From Desulfotomaculaceae bacterium (GTDB lineage Bacteria; Bacillota; Desulfotomaculia; Desulfotomaculales; Pelotomaculaceae), in the NCBI GenBank assembly GCA_028702695.1, contig JAQVOH010000004.1, positions 24,565 to 75,032 on the forward strand: 50,468 bases of DNA, written 5' to 3'. Position numbers and translations under genes: made by a program. The notes under the pieces are model-generated. The model did no database searches. It was given only the letters and a program-made list of their open reading frames with translations, and had not been told where the DNA came from. Positions 6,360 through 14,032 of the stretch are shown in pieces; the stretch's first letter is position 1; each line of letters begins with the position of its first letter.

Positions 6360-6424
6360 ATCCTTCATTCCTGGCAACACCAGGGAAAAGTCTCTTTCAC
6401 GCAAAAACCTGGCACACTTTTCTA

Positions 6425-6453
6425 TTGACAAACGCACTTCATTGTGCTAGTAT
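6425..6453 (+). promoter_or_regulatory. Promoter of the aromatic amino acid operon
   Basis: A perfect -35 TTGACA (6425-6430), a 17-base spacer and a -10 TAGTAT (6448-6453). Transcription would start near 6460, leaving about 22 bases before the leader peptide ATG and about 230 bases before aroF. Confidence 0.8.
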
Positions 6454-6481
6454 CAGACTCAATATTCGAGGAGTGTTGAGA

Positions 6482-6589
6482 ATGACTAAGCTATTGTTTG
6501 CAGCAGAATACTTTTATTTTTACTTTACTTGCTTTTGGGGTAAGGTTAATTTAAGTTTCACTGCAAGCAGGTATCGATATTTAATTTAG
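6482..6589 (+). CDS. Aromatic operon leader peptide (35 aa)
   Basis: A short frame with ATG at 6482, stop TAG at 6587-6589 and a good GAGGAG site ten bases upstream (around 6470). Codons 10-15 alternate Tyr and Phe (TAC TTT TAT TTT TAC TTT) and codons 18-19 are Phe-Trp. Twelve of the 35 residues are aromatic. It lies between a strong promoter and a rho-independent terminator in front of the aro/tyr/phe operon. The peptide is probably not functional itself: its translation senses charged tRNA-Tyr, tRNA-Phe and perhaps tRNA-Trp. Stalling in the 6509-6538 codon run would leave the downstream antiterminator arm (6548-6564) free. The codon run and pairings are read directly from the sequence; the regulatory role is inferred from trp/phe-type attenuators. 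Confidence 0.88.
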   Translation: MTKLLFAAEYFYFYFTCFWGKVNLSFTASRYRYLI

Positions 6590-6645
6590 AACGAAACGAG
6601 AGTGTCTAAATGGATATCAAAGGGTTCAGCAGTGAAATTGAAATT
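6498..6645 (+). promoter_or_regulatory. Attenuator: protector and antiterminator pairings
   Basis: Three alternative pairings follow the classic 1:2, 2:3, 3:4 scheme. TTGCAG at 6498-6503 can pair with CTGCAA at 6561-6566 (1:2). Bases 6548-6564 can pair with 6629-6645 over 17 positions with one mismatch and one G-U (2:3, antiterminator). The second arm overlaps the 5' arm and loop of the terminator at 6619-6664 (3:4), so the two cannot coexist. A ribosome reaching the leader stop at 6587 would cover 6561-6566 and favour termination. Confidence 0.8.
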
Positions 6646-6664
6646 CACGCTGAGTCCTTTTTTT
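6619..6664 (+). terminator. Rho-independent terminator of the aro attenuator
   Basis: The stem 6619-6630 plus 6632-6636 pairs with 6644-6660 (17 pairs, two wobbles, one bulged A at 6631) around a seven-base loop and runs into seven Ts at 6658-6664. It lies 24 bases before the aroF start, after the leader peptide stop. Confidence 0.88.
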
Positions 6665-6688
6665 ATTAAGAAATGAGGAGAGAAAACC

Positions 6689-7693
6689 ATGATTGTCATA
6701 CTGAAGAAGAACAACCCGGATCAAAAGCAGCTGACGCCTCTTGTTTCCTGGCTGAAAAGCTTGGGCATCAGTACCCATTTCTCCGTTGGAAAACACCAGA
6801 CAATCATCGGCTTGATCGGGGATACCAGTGTCGTTGACATTGGTCTGATTCAATCGCTTGAAATCGTTGAGGATGTTAAAAGGATTCTGGAGCCGTACAA
6901 AAAAGCAAACCGCAAGTTTCACACCGATGATACTGTGGTTGATGTCAACGGCGTCAAAATCGGCGGAGGCCATTTTCAAATCATTGCAGGCCCGTGCTCA
7001 GTAGAGTCGCGTGAACAAATATGTGCCATTGCGCAAAGGGTCAAAGCATCCGGCGCATCCCTGCTGCGCGGTGGTGCTTTTAAGCCCCGCACCTCACCCT
7101 ACTCTTTCCAGGGTATGCATGCTGAGGGAATTGAATTGCTGCTCGAAGCAAAAGAGCTGACAGGACTGCCAATTGTGACAGAAATTATGAATATTTCACA
7201 CTTGCCGCTCTTTGAAGAGGTAGATGTGATTCAGGTTGGCGCCAGAAACATGCAAAACTTTGAATTGCTAAAAGAACTCGGCATGCTTCAAAGACCAATC
7301 CTTTTGAAGCGCGGCTTGGCAAATACACTGGAAGAACTGCTGATGAGTGCGGAATATATCATGGCCGGCGGCAATGGAAATGTTATTCTTTGTGAAAGGG
7401 GCATCCGCACCTTTGAAACTGCAACAAGAAACACTCTTGATATTTCAGCAATCCCTGTGCTTCGCAGCAAGACACATCTGCCCATTATTGTTGATCCGAG
7501 TCATGCCGCAGGTATCTCTGCACTGGTAAAGCCACTGTCACTCGCTTCAACCGTCGTGGGGGCGAACGGACTCATGATTGAAGTCCATAATGATCCAAGT
7601 AAAGCCCTTTGCGACGGAGCGCAATCGCTGACACCGGATGCATTTGATAATTTGGCCAATGAAGTTCGCAATGTTTTACCTTTTGCGCAGTGA
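6689..7693 (+). CDS. aroF: 3-deoxy-7-phosphoheptulonate (DAHP) synthase
   Basis: Condenses phosphoenolpyruvate and erythrose-4-phosphate to DAHP, the first step of the shikimate pathway. The 334 residues have an N-terminal ferredoxin-like (ACT-like) regulatory domain, about 1-72, and a type I-beta catalytic barrel with AGPCSVES near residue 101, RGGAFKPRTSPYSFQG, and VDPSHAAG near the end. The N-terminal domain is the one that gives feedback inhibition by Tyr or Phe in Thermotoga-type enzymes. GAGGAG precedes the ATG at 6689. It is the first structural gene after the attenuator, so the flux-controlling step is under both transcriptional and probably allosteric control. Confidence 0.95.
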   Translation: MIVILKKNNPDQKQLTPLVSWLKSLGISTHFSVGKHQTIIGLIGDTSVVDIGLIQSLEIVEDVKRILEPYKKANRKFHTDDTVVDVNGVKIGGGHFQIIAGPCSVESREQICAIAQRVKASGASLLRGGAFKPRTSPYSFQGMHAEGIELLLEAKELTGLPIVTEIMNISHLPLFEEVDVIQVGARNMQNFELLKELGMLQRPILLKRGLANTLEELLMSAEYIMAGGNGNVILCERGIRTFETATRNTLDISAIPVLRSKTHLPIIVDPSHAAGISALVKPLSLASTVVGANGLMIEVHNDPSKALCDGAQSLTPDAFDNLANEVRNVLPFAQ

Positions 7694-7726
7694 AAAGTCC
7701 GCTTTTGATGAGGAGGGTTGAAAAAA

Positions 7727-8563
7727 ATGAATATCGGGATTGTCGGTCTTGGCTTGATTGGCGGCTCAATCGCTAAAGCAATCAAACAAAACACCAAGCA
7801 CAAAGTATTTGGCACAGATATCCAGGAGTCGGTTGTTTGCCTGGCAAAGCTGCTTGAGGCCATTGACGATGTCCTCAGCGACGAGTTTCTGCCGCTATGC
7901 GACATAGTAATTGTGGCGCTTTATCCAACTGACACAATCAATTATGTACAAGCGCGTGCTGGTAGCTTTAAAAAGGGGAGTGTTGTTGCCGACAGCTGCG
8001 GGGTTAAGCAAATGGTTTGTGACGCCCTGCAGGCTACCGCAGCCAACAATGATTTTGTTTTTATCGGTTGCCACCCAATGGCCGGCGTGGAATTTTCCGG
8101 ATTTAAACATTCCAGCACTCAATTATTTCATAATGCCTCCATGATTATGACTCCTTACTACAGCGCAACGCCACTGGGACTGCTTGAAGCCATGAAACAA
8201 TTTTGGCTGAGCTTAGGATTTGCAAACATCACCCTTTGCTCTCCCGCAGAACATGACCGGATGATCGCATACACCTCCCAATTGGCACATGTGGTTTCCA
8301 ATGCCTATGTCAAAAGCAACCTGGCGCCCAAACACAAAGGGTTCTCAGCAGGAAGCTATCACGATATGACCAGAGTGGCAAAGCTGCACGAAAAAATGTG
8401 GACCGAACTTTTCTTTGAAAATAAGCAAAACCTCATGAACGAGCTTGACAGTTTAATCGAACGGCTTGTTGAATATAGTGATGCTTTAAAATCCGGCAAC
8501 CGTGGGGACGTTGAAAAACTTTTGCAGGCTGGAAGAATAATCAAAGAGTCTATCGACTGTTAA
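7727..8563 (+). CDS. tyrA: Prephenate dehydrogenase TyrA
   Basis: Oxidises and decarboxylates prephenate to 4-hydroxyphenylpyruvate for tyrosine synthesis. The NAD-binding fingerprint GLGLIGGSIAKAIK is at the N-terminus, followed by the conserved HPMAG motif with a catalytic histidine and the helical dimerisation domain (MIAYTSQLAHVVSNAY). At 278 residues it is the short form without an ACT domain. The ATG at 7727 was chosen over the in-frame TTG at 7718 because AGGAGG at 7711-7716 directly abuts that TTG but is well spaced for the ATG. It follows aroF by 33 bases in the operon. Confidence 0.93.
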   Translation: MNIGIVGLGLIGGSIAKAIKQNTKHKVFGTDIQESVVCLAKLLEAIDDVLSDEFLPLCDIVIVALYPTDTINYVQARAGSFKKGSVVADSCGVKQMVCDALQATAANNDFVFIGCHPMAGVEFSGFKHSSTQLFHNASMIMTPYYSATPLGLLEAMKQFWLSLGFANITLCSPAEHDRMIAYTSQLAHVVSNAYVKSNLAPKHKGFSAGSYHDMTRVAKLHEKMWTELFFENKQNLMNELDSLIERLVEYSDALKSGNRGDVEKLLQAGRIIKESIDC

Positions 8564-8583: not shown

Positions 8584-9648
8584 ATGAAAACAGTGACCGT
8601 TAACGCCTCAAGAAGTTATGACATTCTCATCGAAAACAAAAGCCTGCATAAGGCAGGAAAGGAAATATTAAAAAGGGTCTCCGCCTGCACGGCTGCAGTT
8701 GTGACCGACAATATTGTCGATGCACTATACTCAGAAGTGCTCTGCGCATCCTTGCGGCAGGCTGGCTTTGCTGTCGTGAAATTTGTATTTAATAACGGAG
8801 AAAGCTCGAAAAATCTTGCTGTTTTTGGCCAGATTCTTGAATTTTTGGCGCAGCAGCAGCTGACCAAATCTGATCTTGTGGTGGCTTTGGGGGGCGGGGT
8901 GACCGGGGATATGGCTGGCTTTGCTGCTTCCGTTTACCTGCGCGGGATTCGTCTTGTGCAAATTCCGACCACCTTGTTGGCGGCAATTGATGCCTCGGTT
9001 GGTGGTAAAACGGCAATAAATCTCACCGCAGGCAAAAATCTTGCGGGCGCCTTCTACCAACCTAGCTTCGTGCTTTGCGACCCCGCAAGCTTTTCAACCT
9101 TACCGGAGACAGTTTTCGCCGATGGCGTAGCCGAAGCAATAAAATACGGTGTACTCGCGTCTATAAAGCTGTTTGAGAAATTGGCGACTGGAAATGCACA
9201 TTGTTACATAGAAGATAGCATTGAACAATGTATCAGCATTAAGCGTGATTTAGTAATGCGGGATGAATTCGATAACGGGGATCGCCAACTGCTCAATTTC
9301 GGACACACCATAGGCCACGCCGTTGAGCATTGCAGCGGCTATTCCATCACGCATGGCCATGCCGTCGCCATCGGCATGGCGTTGATTAGCACTGCGGCCT
9401 GGCGGCTGGGGCTATCCGAAACAGACTGTGCCGAGCCGATTAAAGCCGCCCTGGCAGCCAATGATCTGCCTGTTTCCTCTCCTTTTACGGCCGGGCAATT
9501 GGCCGAGGTTGCTTTGCGTGATAAAAAACGTCGCCAAGACAGTATTACCCTTGTTATTCCCAAAAAAATCGGCATATGTGTTCTCTATCAAATACCCGTT
9601 CCTGCTCTGCCTGATTTCATCCGCCAGGGTATTGGAAAGGGGTCATAA
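8584..9648 (+). CDS. aroB: 3-dehydroquinate synthase
   Basis: Converts DAHP to 3-dehydroquinate, using catalytic NAD+ and a divalent metal. The 354 residues show NNGESSKN, GGGVTGDMAGFAASVYLRGI, PTTLLAAIDASVGGKTAIN, GKNLAGAFYQP, and the metal-binding histidines in LNFGHTIGHAVEH and SITHGHAVAIGM. Full length. It starts 20 bases after tyrA and ends one base before aroA, so it is tightly coupled in the operon. Confidence 0.96.
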   Translation: MKTVTVNASRSYDILIENKSLHKAGKEILKRVSACTAAVVTDNIVDALYSEVLCASLRQAGFAVVKFVFNNGESSKNLAVFGQILEFLAQQQLTKSDLVVALGGGVTGDMAGFAASVYLRGIRLVQIPTTLLAAIDASVGGKTAINLTAGKNLAGAFYQPSFVLCDPASFSTLPETVFADGVAEAIKYGVLASIKLFEKLATGNAHCYIEDSIEQCISIKRDLVMRDEFDNGDRQLLNFGHTIGHAVEHCSGYSITHGHAVAIGMALISTAAWRLGLSETDCAEPIKAALAANDLPVSSPFTAGQLAEVALRDKKRRQDSITLVIPKKIGICVLYQIPVPALPDFIRQGIGKGS

Positions 9649-9649
9649 A

Positions 9650-10915
9650 ATGAACATTCGTATCACGCCGTCAGCTTTGCAGGGCAGGATTGAAGCAATC
9701 CCCTCAAAATCAGACGCCCATCGCATTTTGATTGCAGCTGCTCTATCAGATCAGCCGACAGTTGTCCGGCTTGGCTCCTCCTCCCAAGATATCCAGGCTA
9801 CAATGGAATGTTTGAGGTCGCTTGGAGCGAAGATATATAACGATTCACCGGGATTTTTAAATATCTCGCCCGTTTGGCAAAATACTGTTGCTTTTCCCAA
9901 ACTTGATTGCGGCGAAAGTGGAGCGACACTGCGTTTTCTGCTGCCTGTTGCAGCGGCACTGGGTGTCCCTGTAACTTTCTCGGGACAGGGCAGACTGCCG
10001 CAGCGCCCGCTCCAACCGCTGGTGGAGCAACTGGAAAGCCACGGCTGCCACTTCGACCGGGCAAGGCTGCCGCTGACAGTTTCCGGAAGCATGACTGGAG
10101 GGCATTATACTCTGCCCGGCGATGTCAGCTCACAGTTTATCACCGGACTGCTGTTTGCGTTGCCGCTGTTAGAAAAAGACAGCCACATTGTTCTCTCATC
10201 ACAGTTAGAATCAAAAGGGTATGTCCAAATGACAATTGCAACTCTCAAAAAATTCGGCATCGCCATAGAAGAGCAAACGCGCGGCTATCAAATCAAAGGT
10301 GGACAAAAATACCTTTCGCCTCAACAGCTTAGTGTCGAGGGGGATTGGTCCAACGCCGCATTTTGGATTTGCGCAGGCGCCTTGCAAGGCAGTGAGATTC
10401 TATGTGGGGGCCTTGCTCAAGACTCAGTGCAAGGGGATAAAGAGATCATCAACTTGCTGGGCGCTTTTGACGCAAATGTGTCTTTTTTCAAAGATACCGC
10501 CCATACAGCCGGAAAACCGCTCCAGGCTCAGCGTATTAACGCGGCTGAAATACCCGATTTAATTCCTATTATTGCAGTGGTGGCGACAGCGGCAGCCGGA
10601 ACAACACTCATATACAACGCCAGACGCCTGCGGATTAAAGAAAGCGACCGACTTGCGGCAATTGCGCAAGGTCTAGCACAGCTTGGCGCCGATGTCACCG
10701 AGAGGGAGGATGCACTGCTTATCCGCGGCGGCAAACCTTTACGCGGCGGAGTTGTTCAGGGTTTTGGAGACCATCGCATCGTAATGTCAATGGCGATCGC
10801 TGGAGCACTTTGCACAAACGAGCTGATCATTGAGGGTGCAGAGGCGGTCGATAAATCCTATCCACAATTCTTTAATCATTTCAAAAGGCTTGGAGGGATT
10901 GCAGATGTCATTTAA
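9650..10915 (+). CDS. aroA: EPSP synthase (3-phosphoshikimate 1-carboxyvinyltransferase)
   Basis: Transfers the enolpyruvyl group of PEP to shikimate-3-phosphate. Of its 421 residues the N-terminal PSKSDAHRILIAAAL holds the conserved lysine, CGESGATLRFLLP is the glycine-rich PEP/glyphosate loop, and RIKESDRLAAI and GDHRIVMSMAIAG follow near the C-terminus, ending SYPQFF. The ATG at 9650 lies one base after the aroB stop with GGAAAGGGG upstream; the same frame stays open further 5' but that part overlaps aroB and carries no EPSPS homology. It overlaps aroC by 11 bases. Confidence 0.96.
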   Translation: MNIRITPSALQGRIEAIPSKSDAHRILIAAALSDQPTVVRLGSSSQDIQATMECLRSLGAKIYNDSPGFLNISPVWQNTVAFPKLDCGESGATLRFLLPVAAALGVPVTFSGQGRLPQRPLQPLVEQLESHGCHFDRARLPLTVSGSMTGGHYTLPGDVSSQFITGLLFALPLLEKDSHIVLSSQLESKGYVQMTIATLKKFGIAIEEQTRGYQIKGGQKYLSPQQLSVEGDWSNAAFWICAGALQGSEILCGGLAQDSVQGDKEIINLLGAFDANVSFFKDTAHTAGKPLQAQRINAAEIPDLIPIIAVVATAAAGTTLIYNARRLRIKESDRLAAIAQGLAQLGADVTEREDALLIRGGKPLRGGVVQGFGDHRIVMSMAIAGALCTNELIIEGAEAVDKSYPQFFNHFKRLGGIADVI

Positions 10916-11981
10916 TTTCGGGGAAAATATCAAAATTTCGCTGTTTGGGCAGTCGCATTCCGAAGCTATCGGAGTGGTGATTGACGGCTTGCCTCCCGGC
11001 GAAGAAATAGACTTGGAACGGGTACAAAGATTTATGGCCCGCCGTGCACCCGGCAATAAAGTATTTTCTACTGCACGCCGGGAAACAGATGAGGCCAAAG
11101 TCATCTGCGGTCTTTTGGAGGGCAAGACCTGCGGCTCTCCTCTTTGCGCCGTGATTAAAAACACGGATTGCAAACCGGGGGACTATGCAGCCATATTGGA
11201 TGTACCCCGGCCTTCTCATGCCGATTATTGTGCACACATCAAATATAAAGGCGCCAACGACATCCGTGGTGGCGGCCATTTTTCCGGACGGCTTACTGCT
11301 CCAATTTGCTTTGCTGGCGCAGTTTGTCTCCAAATTCTGGAGCGTCTTGGCGTCTTTATCGGTGCGCATATTCAATCAATCGGCGAAATTGAAGACCGCC
11401 GCTTCGACCCTGTAACGGTTGATGCGACTCAGCTCACAACCGTTACCAAGAAGGCCTTTGCCGTGCTTGACGATGAGCTAGGTCAACACATGGTTGACCT
11501 CATTGAGATGGTCAAGGGTCAATCCGACTCGCTGGGTGGCGTCATTGAATGCTGCGCGATCGGGGTTCCTGTCGGAGTCGGAGAACCCATGTTCAGCGGC
11601 CTGGAAAACAGACTGGCAGCAGCCGCCTTCGCCATTCCGGCCGTCAAAGGAGTGGAATTTGGCGCTGGGTTCGCTTCAGCAAAGCTGCGTGGCTCACAAA
11701 ATAATGATGAATTTTACTATGATCACAAAGGCCAGGTGAAAACAAAGACCAATCATCATGGCGGCATTTTGGGCGGCATCGCCTCGGGGATGCCTTTGCT
11801 GATGAACGTCGCTTTTAAGCCTACGCCATCAATTGCCATGCAACAAAATTCCATCAGTCTTTCCAAAAAAACCAATACCACGATTTCCATTAAAGGAAGA
11901 CACGATCCTTGTATCGTGCCACGTGCAGTTCCCTGTGTAGAAGCAACAATGGCAATCTCTTTGCTTGACCTGATGGTTTAA
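10905..11981 (+). CDS. aroC: Chorismate synthase
   Basis: Makes chorismate from EPSP with reduced FMN. The 358-residue product starts MSFNFGENIKISLFGQSHSE, with GQSHSEAIG as the N-terminal signature, RRAPGNKVFSTARRE as the arginine-rich substrate region, GGGHFSGRLTA, and HHGGILGGIASGMPL as the FMN-binding signature. GGAGGG stands seven bases before the ATG at 10905; longer in-frame starts lie inside aroA. The short overlap with aroA implies translational coupling. Confidence 0.96.
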   Translation: MSFNFGENIKISLFGQSHSEAIGVVIDGLPPGEEIDLERVQRFMARRAPGNKVFSTARRETDEAKVICGLLEGKTCGSPLCAVIKNTDCKPGDYAAILDVPRPSHADYCAHIKYKGANDIRGGGHFSGRLTAPICFAGAVCLQILERLGVFIGAHIQSIGEIEDRRFDPVTVDATQLTTVTKKAFAVLDDELGQHMVDLIEMVKGQSDSLGGVIECCAIGVPVGVGEPMFSGLENRLAAAAFAIPAVKGVEFGAGFASAKLRGSQNNDEFYYDHKGQVKTKTNHHGGILGGIASGMPLLMNVAFKPTPSIAMQQNSISLSKKTNTTISIKGRHDPCIVPRAVPCVEATMAISLLDLMV

Positions 11982-12002: not shown

Positions 12003-13145
12003 ATGGATATCAAAGCACTGAGAGAAGAACTCAATCAAATTGATTTAGAGTTGCTTCAATTGTTTACTAAACGGATGGATACAGTCGCTAGCATTTCAAA
12101 GTATAAAATACAAAATAATTTGCCTGTTTTAGATCATGAGCGGGAACGTGAGGTTTTAAACCGCGCTGCAGAAATCTCCGGAGAGAAAATGGAAACATAT
12201 GCAAAGAGGCTGTTTAATACCTTGTTCGACCTGAGCAAAAGCTATCAAAATCAGCTTATCTCGCACAACTCTGAGCTTGCCCGAGACATTAAAGCAGCGA
12301 CCTGTGAGCTGACCAGGCAATTTCCTTCAAAAGCAAATATTGCCTGCCAGGGAACAGAGGGTTCCTATTCCCAACAAGCCTGCGAAAAACTTTTTTCACT
12401 GCCAAATCCGATGTTTTTTAACGATTTCGACTCTGTTTTCCAAGCAGTAGAAAAAGGTATGTGCGATTACGGTTTATTACCGGTTGAAAATAGTTTGGCA
12501 GGTACGGTTATCACCGTATATGACTTGATGGAGAAACATAAATTTCACATTGTGCGTAGTATTAGACTGAGAATAAATCACACCTTGCTCGCCAAAAAAA
12601 GCGTATTTTTTGATGATATTAAGGAAATTGTTTCGCATGAACAGGCCATCGGCCAATGCAGCGAATTCTTGAAAGCTCACTCACAAATCAAGGTTACCGT
12701 GTTCAGCAACACGGCAGCCGCAGCAAAATATGTCGCTGAGTCAAACCGCTGTGATCTTGCTGCGATATCATCTGAGACCTGTGCAGAGCTTTATAACCTT
12801 GACATTTTGAAAGACAACATCCAAAACCGGGATAACAACTATACCCGTTTTATCTGTATCTCCAAAGAAATGAGAATCTATCCCGGAGCAAACAAAATCA
12901 GCATTTTGCTCTCGCTCCCCCATAAGCCGGGCTCGCTTTGCACACTGCTTTCAAAATTTTCATCGCTCGGGTTCAATCTGACCAAGCTTGAAAGCCGTCC
13001 GATTATCGGAAAGGATTTTGAGTTCATGTTTTACTTCGATTTCGATGCTTCCATTTACTTGACCGAAACAGTGCATTTGCTATGTGAGCTGGAAAACAGT
13101 CTGGGTAAATTTATTTTCTTGGGAAGTTACAGCGAAATATTTTAG
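12003..13145 (+). CDS. pheA: Bifunctional chorismate mutase / prephenate dehydratase (P-protein)
   Basis: Converts chorismate to prephenate and prephenate to phenylpyruvate, committing flux to phenylalanine. The 380 residues divide into an AroQ-type chorismate mutase helix domain (about 1-85: LREELNQIDLELLQLFTKR), a prephenate dehydratase domain (about 115-295: CQGTEGSYSQQAC, LLPVENSLAGTV, NYTRFICIS) and a C-terminal ACT domain with GSLCTLLSKF and the Phe-binding ESRP motif. Start chosen at the ATG after GGGAGG. Because it also supplies prephenate, this mutase may serve TyrA, which has no mutase domain. Feedback by Phe through the ACT domain is expected from the family. Confidence 0.95.
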   Translation: MDIKALREELNQIDLELLQLFTKRMDTVASISKYKIQNNLPVLDHEREREVLNRAAEISGEKMETYAKRLFNTLFDLSKSYQNQLISHNSELARDIKAATCELTRQFPSKANIACQGTEGSYSQQACEKLFSLPNPMFFNDFDSVFQAVEKGMCDYGLLPVENSLAGTVITVYDLMEKHKFHIVRSIRLRINHTLLAKKSVFFDDIKEIVSHEQAIGQCSEFLKAHSQIKVTVFSNTAAAAKYVAESNRCDLAAISSETCAELYNLDILKDNIQNRDNNYTRFICISKEMRIYPGANKISILLSLPHKPGSLCTLLSKFSSLGFNLTKLESRPIIGKDFEFMFYFDFDASIYLTETVHLLCELENSLGKFIFLGSYSEIF

Positions 13146-13183: not shown

Positions 13184-14032
13184 ATGATGCAAAGCTATAA
13201 ATATGCTGTTCTTGGCAATCCAATAGAGCACTCGCTTTCTCCAGTATTGCATGAAGCAGGATATCGCGCGATCGGTTTAGATGCTTCATATGAGCGGATC
13301 AAGGTGACGAAAGAAACGCTGCCTGCGACAGTTCAAAATCTAGTGGAGCAAAAGTTTAATGGTTGGAATGTAACCTATCCTCTCAAAGGCGAAATCATTC
13401 AATACCTTGATGAAATAGATCCCAGGGCGAGACTTTTAGGGGCGGTGAACACTGTCAAAGTATCCGGGAAGCGACTTCTGGGTTATAATACCGACGGCCC
13501 TGGGCTTATCCGGGGTTTAACCAGCCAGGGTTTTTCGACAAAAGATAAAAAGGTAACGATTTTTGGGGCTGGCGGGGCAGCGAAAGCGGTAGCTTTAGCC
13601 TTGGCAGAGACTGGCGCCAAAGTGACAGTTATTAACCGTAGCTTTGAGAAAGCTCAGAATCTAGTCGAGCTTTTGTTAGCTCAAGGCTATGAGGCAGCAA
13701 CGCTAGCTATTGGGCAAACCACGGGTAATAGGCTGCTTACCCAATGTCTGGCAGGCACAGACATTGTCGTGCAAGCTACTTCAGTTGGTTTAGAAAAGGA
13801 AAAATACCCATACCCACTGCATGGACTGAGAGCCGGTACAGTAGCTATTGATCTGATTTATAATCCTCCAAAAACAGATTTTATGATTAAATCTCATCTT
13901 CAAGGTTGTGAAGTTTTGAATGGGCTAAGCATGTTGCTCTATCAGGGAGTCCTGGCATGGGAGATCTGGTTGGATGCTTGCGCCCCTGTTTCAGAAATGA
14001 AAACAGCTTTATACCAAAGCTCTATCCCTTAA
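13184..14032 (+). CDS. aroE: Shikimate dehydrogenase
   Basis: NADPH-dependent reduction of 3-dehydroshikimate to shikimate. The 282 residues contain the substrate motif NPIEHSLSP, the catalytic lysine in NVTYPLKGEII, NTDGPGL, and the NADP-binding GAGGAAKAVALAL. GAGGAG lies before adjacent ATGs at 13184 and 13187. It is the last gene of the operon. No dehydroquinase (aroD/aroQ) or shikimate kinase (aroK) follows; the next gene is convergent hisI. Confidence 0.94.
   Translation: MMQSYKYAVLGNPIEHSLSPVLHEAGYRAIGLDASYERIKVTKETLPATVQNLVEQKFNGWNVTYPLKGEIIQYLDEIDPRARLLGAVNTVKVSGKRLLGYNTDGPGLIRGLTSQGFSTKDKKVTIFGAGGAAKAVALALAETGAKVTVINRSFEKAQNLVELLLAQGYEAATLAIGQTTGNRLLTQCLAGTDIVVQATSVGLEKEKYPYPLHGLRAGTVAIDLIYNPPKTDFMIKSHLQGCEVLNGLSMLLYQGVLAWEIWLDACAPVSEMKTALYQSSIP

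Follow-up and report, generated by a model that had tools for sequence, protein, structure and literature searches.

Positions 6425-6688 on the forward strand of the window, the 50,468-nucleotide stretch of Desulfotomaculaceae DNA analyzed here, very probably form a ribosome-mediated transcription attenuator in which one leader reads the charging of both tRNA-Tyr and tRNA-Phe. Ahead of aroF, the first gene of an aromatic operon, lie a promoter, a leader of 35 codons and three pairings (1:2, 2:3 and the terminator, 3:4) that cannot coexist. Computation established these parts and showed that they are conserved, that the pairing arms co-evolve and that a parked ribosome changes the fold. Four features by which attenuators are recognized are present: a translatable leader ORF with a start codon, a Shine-Dalgarno sequence and regulatory codons for products of the pathway; an intrinsic terminator between this leader and the first gene; a protector, an antiterminator and a terminator that exclude one another and are preserved by co-evolution; and, in computed folds, an antiterminator favored by a stall at the regulatory codons but not by a ribosome at the stop codon. 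Ribosome-mediated attenuation had been proposed in a preliminary description of this DNA, and conserved leaders, a leader-linked terminator, co-evolving arms and folds with the leader blocked all argue for it.

The leader unit and the operon downstream

The following features were located:

6425..6453 (+): sigma-70-type promoter, TTGACA-N17-TAGTAT, with an extended -10 (TG); 10/12 matches
6468..6473 (+): Shine-Dalgarno sequence of the leader peptide, GAGGAG, 8 nt before the ATG (sequence)
6482..6589 (+): leader peptide gene, 35 codons, MTKLLFAAEYFYFYFTCFWGKVNLSFTASRYRYLI, from ATG at 6482 to TAG at 6587-6589
6490..6512 (+): segment 1, protector 5' arm, pairing with 6554-6572 in the free transcript; its core, 6495-6503, encodes FAAEY
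6509-6526 (+): sensor codons 10-15, Tyr-Phe-Tyr-Phe-Tyr-Phe (sequence)
6548..6564 (+): segment 2, antiterminator 5' arm and protector 3' side; 16/17 pairs with 6629-6645
6629..6645 (+): segment 3, antiterminator 3' arm, which is also the terminator 5' arm and loop (pairing with segment 2; swapped-arm test)
6619..6665 (+): intrinsic terminator (3:4), stem 6619-6660, U-tract from 6658 (folding; equivalents in relatives)
6675..6680 (+): Shine-Dalgarno sequence of aroF (sequence)
6689..7693 (+): aroF, DAHP synthase type I with ferredoxin-like domain (Pfam PF00793, PF18152)
7718..8563 (+): tyrA, prephenate dehydrogenase (Pfam PF02153, PF20463)
8584..9648 (+): aroB, 3-dehydroquinate synthase (Pfam PF01761)
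9650..10915 (+): aroA, EPSP synthase (Pfam PF00275)
10905..11981 (+): aroC, chorismate synthase (Pfam PF01264)
12003..13145 (+): pheA, chorismate mutase-prephenate dehydratase (Pfam PF01817, PF00800)
13184..14032 (+): aroE, shikimate dehydrogenase (Pfam PF08501, PF01488)

All parts named in the preliminary description were recovered where it had placed them. The promoter beginning with TTGACA at 6425 is there, although a promoter scan finds 2 sites where shuffles predict 1.8, and the match by itself is not significant. The 35-codon leader carries its six alternating Tyr/Phe codons as well as the Phe-Trp pair (codons 18-19), and the strong terminator, overlapping segment 3, has both its stem and its U-tract. 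The arms of the 2:3 antiterminator had also been placed correctly; the pairing, described as 17 bases, contains one mismatch. The fold of the whole leader reaches -59 kcal/mol (z = -4.6), and 0/200 shuffles were equally stable. By Pfam, the gene order is aroF-tyrA-aroB-aroA-aroC-pheA-aroE, as had been claimed; shikimate kinase (aroK) and dehydroquinase (aroD/aroQ) are absent from this gene run, and the operon is therefore not the complete pathway it had been called.

The unit is closely preserved in a genome of the same genus (G002), at 90% identity over 281 bases. The promoter hexamers and their spacing are retained there (TTGACA-N17-TACTAT), the leader differs by a single change, Cys17 to Ser, with all aromatic codons kept, and the terminator stem, at -23.1 kcal/mol, is no weaker and perhaps stronger.

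An extra hairpin occupies 6576-6617 of the window, between leader and terminator, and encloses the leader stop codon; it would fall inside the loop that the 2:3 antiterminator forms, where it might make the polymerase pause. A small 5' hairpin at 6460-6478 buries the leader Shine-Dalgarno sequence and is weakened in the same-genus copy, in which one pair becomes A-C.

Tyr/Phe-rich leaders precede aroF in most of the nearest relatives

Homologous aroF leaders, which the preliminary description had suggested searching, were compared at the 80 loci whose AroF is nearest to the window's among GTDB genomes. Most belong to Clostridia, including Oscillospiraceae and Lachnospiraceae; many come from gut Clostridia, and a few from metagenome-assembled genomes labelled Spirochaetota, Lentisphaerota and Planctomycetota. 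A Tyr/Phe-rich leader ORF precedes aroF in 62/80 loci, and no leader was recognized in the other 18. Cultured bacteria that carry the element include Sporobacter termitidis and Anaerotignum neopropionicum. Under a strict test (ATG, Shine-Dalgarno sequence, a length of 12-60 codons and six or more aromatics within 12 residues), 47/80 loci passed, compared with 0.10/80 in shuffles. The same test found 0 on the reverse strand and 0/28 among ordinary DAHP synthases of the window's relatives, and any other residue class tried gave at most 1. A lack of conservation of the leader codons or of the pairings among relatives was checked for and did not emerge.

Per leader, the mean codon counts are 5.4 for Phe, 4.0 for Tyr and 0.06 for Trp. 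Two or more Phe codons together with two or more Tyr codons occur in 61/63 leaders, and any Trp codon in only 4/63. From species to species, Tyr and Phe change freely in order and number without altering the composition, a FAA(E)Y motif recurs before the run, and outside the aromatic run the peptides diverge widely. A terminator at E<=-11 stands before aroF in 59/64 leader-bearing loci, compared with 20/128 shuffles and just 1/18 leaderless loci.

Short ORFs are common, and the leader might be a real small protein or a chance ORF in front of a terminator that is unregulated or controlled by a protein. Chance is excluded by the shuffles, the reverse strand, the other residue classes and the 28 control DAHP synthases; a small protein sits poorly with peptides that differ so widely beyond the aromatic run, and leader and terminator occur together, with arms that co-evolve with the terminator (see below). 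We regard either version as highly improbable. A second regulon with the same leader was sought and did not turn up: when 20 leader-bearing genomes were searched for YFYFY patterns, aroF was the only gene with a convincing leader in front of it. Scanning 398 genomes of the phylum with 18-mers, and following up only about 30 of the places, yielded no new leader-operon pair.

The pairing arms co-evolve

Taken one locus at a time, 2:3 often falls short of significance (p<=0.05 in 26/60, with 3 expected). As the per-locus z-scores are modest, a swapped-arm test was used instead, in which the region after the Tyr/Phe run was paired, at 54 loci, with the terminator 5' arm of its own locus and with those of all other loci. 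For 2:3, where the whole region was taken, own arms gave -14.6 kcal/mol versus -11.6 +- 0.34 kcal/mol for swapped ones, a gain of 3.0 that was matched in 0/20,000 permutations. The 1:2 protector, a further element of the preliminary description, showed a gain of 4.4 (-16.8 versus -12.4 +- 0.43 kcal/mol; 0/20,000 permutations), a test that rests on a chosen stretch because the segment 2 of each locus was picked by its pairing with segment 3. A control stretch upstream of the leader gained 0.7 (-10.35 versus -9.68 +- 0.30 kcal/mol; 297/20,000). Complementary arms are kept despite quite different sequences, for example at L079, L097, L104 and L106, which indicates that the arms co-evolved and are not simply conserved in sequence.

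In computed folds, a ribosome at the Tyr/Phe codons favors the antiterminator

The window's leader was folded with and without a ribosome, as had been proposed. In the ribosome-free transcript, the 1:2 pairing has a probability of 0.69-0.88 and 2:3 of at most 0.19, and the terminator then forms at up to 0.93. With the A site on any of codons 10-15, 2:3 rises to 0.98-1.0 at transcript ends 6640-6650 (0.99-1.0 at 6650 itself) and stands at 0.44-0.98 at 6655. A ribosome at the stop codon leaves no 2:3 pairing, and the terminator forms. The same response is seen across 58 loci, where the expected number of 2:3 pairs is 7.2 in the free transcript, 12.8 with a ribosome stalled in the run and 4.5 with one at the stop codon (Wilcoxon p ~2e-10); stalling gains 5.6 pairs in native leaders versus 0.4 in shuffled ones.

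These folds suggest the following mechanism. When Tyr and Phe are both plentiful, or when the leader is untranslated, segment 1 would pair with segment 2, leaving segment 3 free for segment 4, and RNA polymerase would terminate at about 6665. When Tyr or Phe is short, the ribosome would stall on the alternating codons 10-15 and cover segment 1, so that segment 2 could pair with segment 3 as the latter emerges; the terminator would then come too late, and aroF-tyrA-aroB-aroA-aroC-pheA-aroE would be transcribed. In the full-length transcript at equilibrium, 3:4 is favored (0.83-0.93) even with a stalled ribosome. The switch would therefore have to be kinetic, with the choice presumably made as RNA polymerase crosses about 6645-6660.

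The preliminary description had also spoken of a Tyr/Phe/Trp leader peptide, in which Trp would be a third signal. The Phe-Trp pair at codons 18-19, kept in the window and in its same-genus relative, would be the basis for an attenuator that reads all three aromatics. With a ribosome at Phe18 or Trp19, however, the antiterminator effect is gone by 6655: a stall at Trp19 gives 2:3 only 0.27 at 6650 and 0 at 6655, far below codons 10-15. Together with the rarity of Trp codons among the leaders, this makes a three-amino-acid sensor unlikely, and Trp is probably not sensed.

The leader could also act as a nascent-chain arrest peptide, responding to a small molecule (free Tyr, free Phe or a shikimate intermediate) rather than to uncharged tRNA. 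The recurrent FAA(E)Y motif is in keeping with this, and a stall anywhere on codons 9-17 of the window has the same structural effect. FAAEY, however, overlaps RNA segment 1, where it is conserved for pairing, and a run whose order is free while its composition is kept is what codon sensing predicts and not what a specific arrest sequence would show. We therefore consider arrest by a small molecule improbable and sensing of tRNA charging the better account.

Relation to known leaders

Aromatic operons of Firmicutes are usually assigned to T-box or TRAP control; in most of the nearest relatives, aroF is preceded by what appears to be a classical leader-peptide attenuator reading two amino acids at once. 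The enterobacterial pheL-pheA and trpL-trpE attenuators share the mechanism and the four-segment architecture, but each reads one amino acid and neither stands ahead of the first gene of a joint aro-tyr-phe operon. The window has no sequence match to the Phe and Trp leader families of Rfam, and a scan of 40 leader-bearing loci with Rfam 15 returned one tRNA gene match and no leader family (Phe, Trp, His or others). With no matching Rfam family, genome annotation misses the element.

Leaders that read two or more amino acids made by one joint pathway are exemplified by that of E. coli ilvGMEDA. The attenuator peptide of Staphylococcus aureus ilv-leu is a multi-amino-acid leader as well (PMC5794164), which supports the working of such leaders in Firmicutes, although for branched-chain and not aromatic amino acids. 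Leader attenuators predicted to replace T-boxes in Bacillus, Eubacteriales and Erysipelotrichales (PMC2965389, PMC9413887) differ in carrying His codons and in preceding his and hisS genes. The uORFC-13-1 motif (PMC8632094, 2021) is a Phe uORF directly upstream of aroF and an intrinsic terminator for which attenuation was proposed; it comprises 24 sequences whose known hosts are Acholeplasma only, with at least one Phe codon and Tyr codons unmentioned. In a study of five genomes including Clostridium novyi, Stav et al. 2019 (PMC6429828) present, in Fig. 6b, two candidate uORFs with notable Phe and Tyr codons before shikimate genes, proposed as cis-regulatory. These may be this very element; the figure legend gives no four-segment pairing test. 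The element had been thought possibly undescribed. This was right only in part: candidate Phe/Tyr uORFs ahead of shikimate genes had been listed earlier, and the element is not undescribed in principle. It is best classified as a well-supported predicted member of a known mechanism.

A sister operon carries a T-box

A T-box or another known riboswitch might control the operon, with the leader incidental. T-boxes are usual in the window's genome, with 16 matches at E<=0.001, 12 of them above the cut-off, including ones before genes that by eye resemble tyrS, hisS, metG and ilvE. T-boxes are thus available to this genome yet not used for the aroF operon: at gathering score, no Rfam family, the T-box (RF00230) included, matched the window, and a laxer scan of 6400-6720 gave matches all far below the cut-off, none of them a T-box. 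A T-box or other described riboswitch in the window is ruled out by these scans, and we give such control next to no probability compared with the leader-peptide attenuator.

The homologous operon of G042, a genome of the same order but another family with the closest AroF outside the genus (81%), does have a T-box, which reads tRNA directly without translation. That operon, aroK-aroF-tyrA-aroB-aroA-aroC-pheA, has the window's gene order after an apparent aroK. Its T-box lies at L141 8100-8344 (-) and scores 119.8 bits; UUC is the sole aromatic triplet in the specifier region, which makes Phe the likely specificity. The window and G042 allow two charging sensors to be compared cleanly on one set of genes.

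In an AroF tree built from chosen nearest hits, the window groups with G002 and G042 (99%) in a clade that lies among leader-bearing Clostridia and apart from the DAHP synthases that were sampled elsewhere in the window's family. This topology is compatible with an operon acquired by transfer in which one sensor took the other's place, in either direction. On balance, we lean towards a broader reading: that the Tyr/Phe dual-codon attenuator is widespread as the usual control of this AroF lineage in Clostridia and moves with the operon between lineages; that its alternating codons make a shortage of either amino acid enough; and that in a sister lineage it was swapped for a T-box, likely for Phe, on the same genes, a natural exchange of unrelated tRNA-charging sensors.

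Among the other T-boxes, one at G000:C70:5167-5422 (L144; 129.6 bits) precedes what by eye is a phenylacetate-CoA ligase-like gene, an unusual T-box target, and those at L146 and L154 likewise precede genes that look acyl-CoA synthetase-like. A second lineage of DAHP synthases, 60-62% identical to that of the window, was found without an aromatic leader at L114-L121 (G049, G020, G016, G017, G013, G023, G015 and G003). The L114 member follows directly after a trpF-like reading frame and therefore probably lies within a trp operon.
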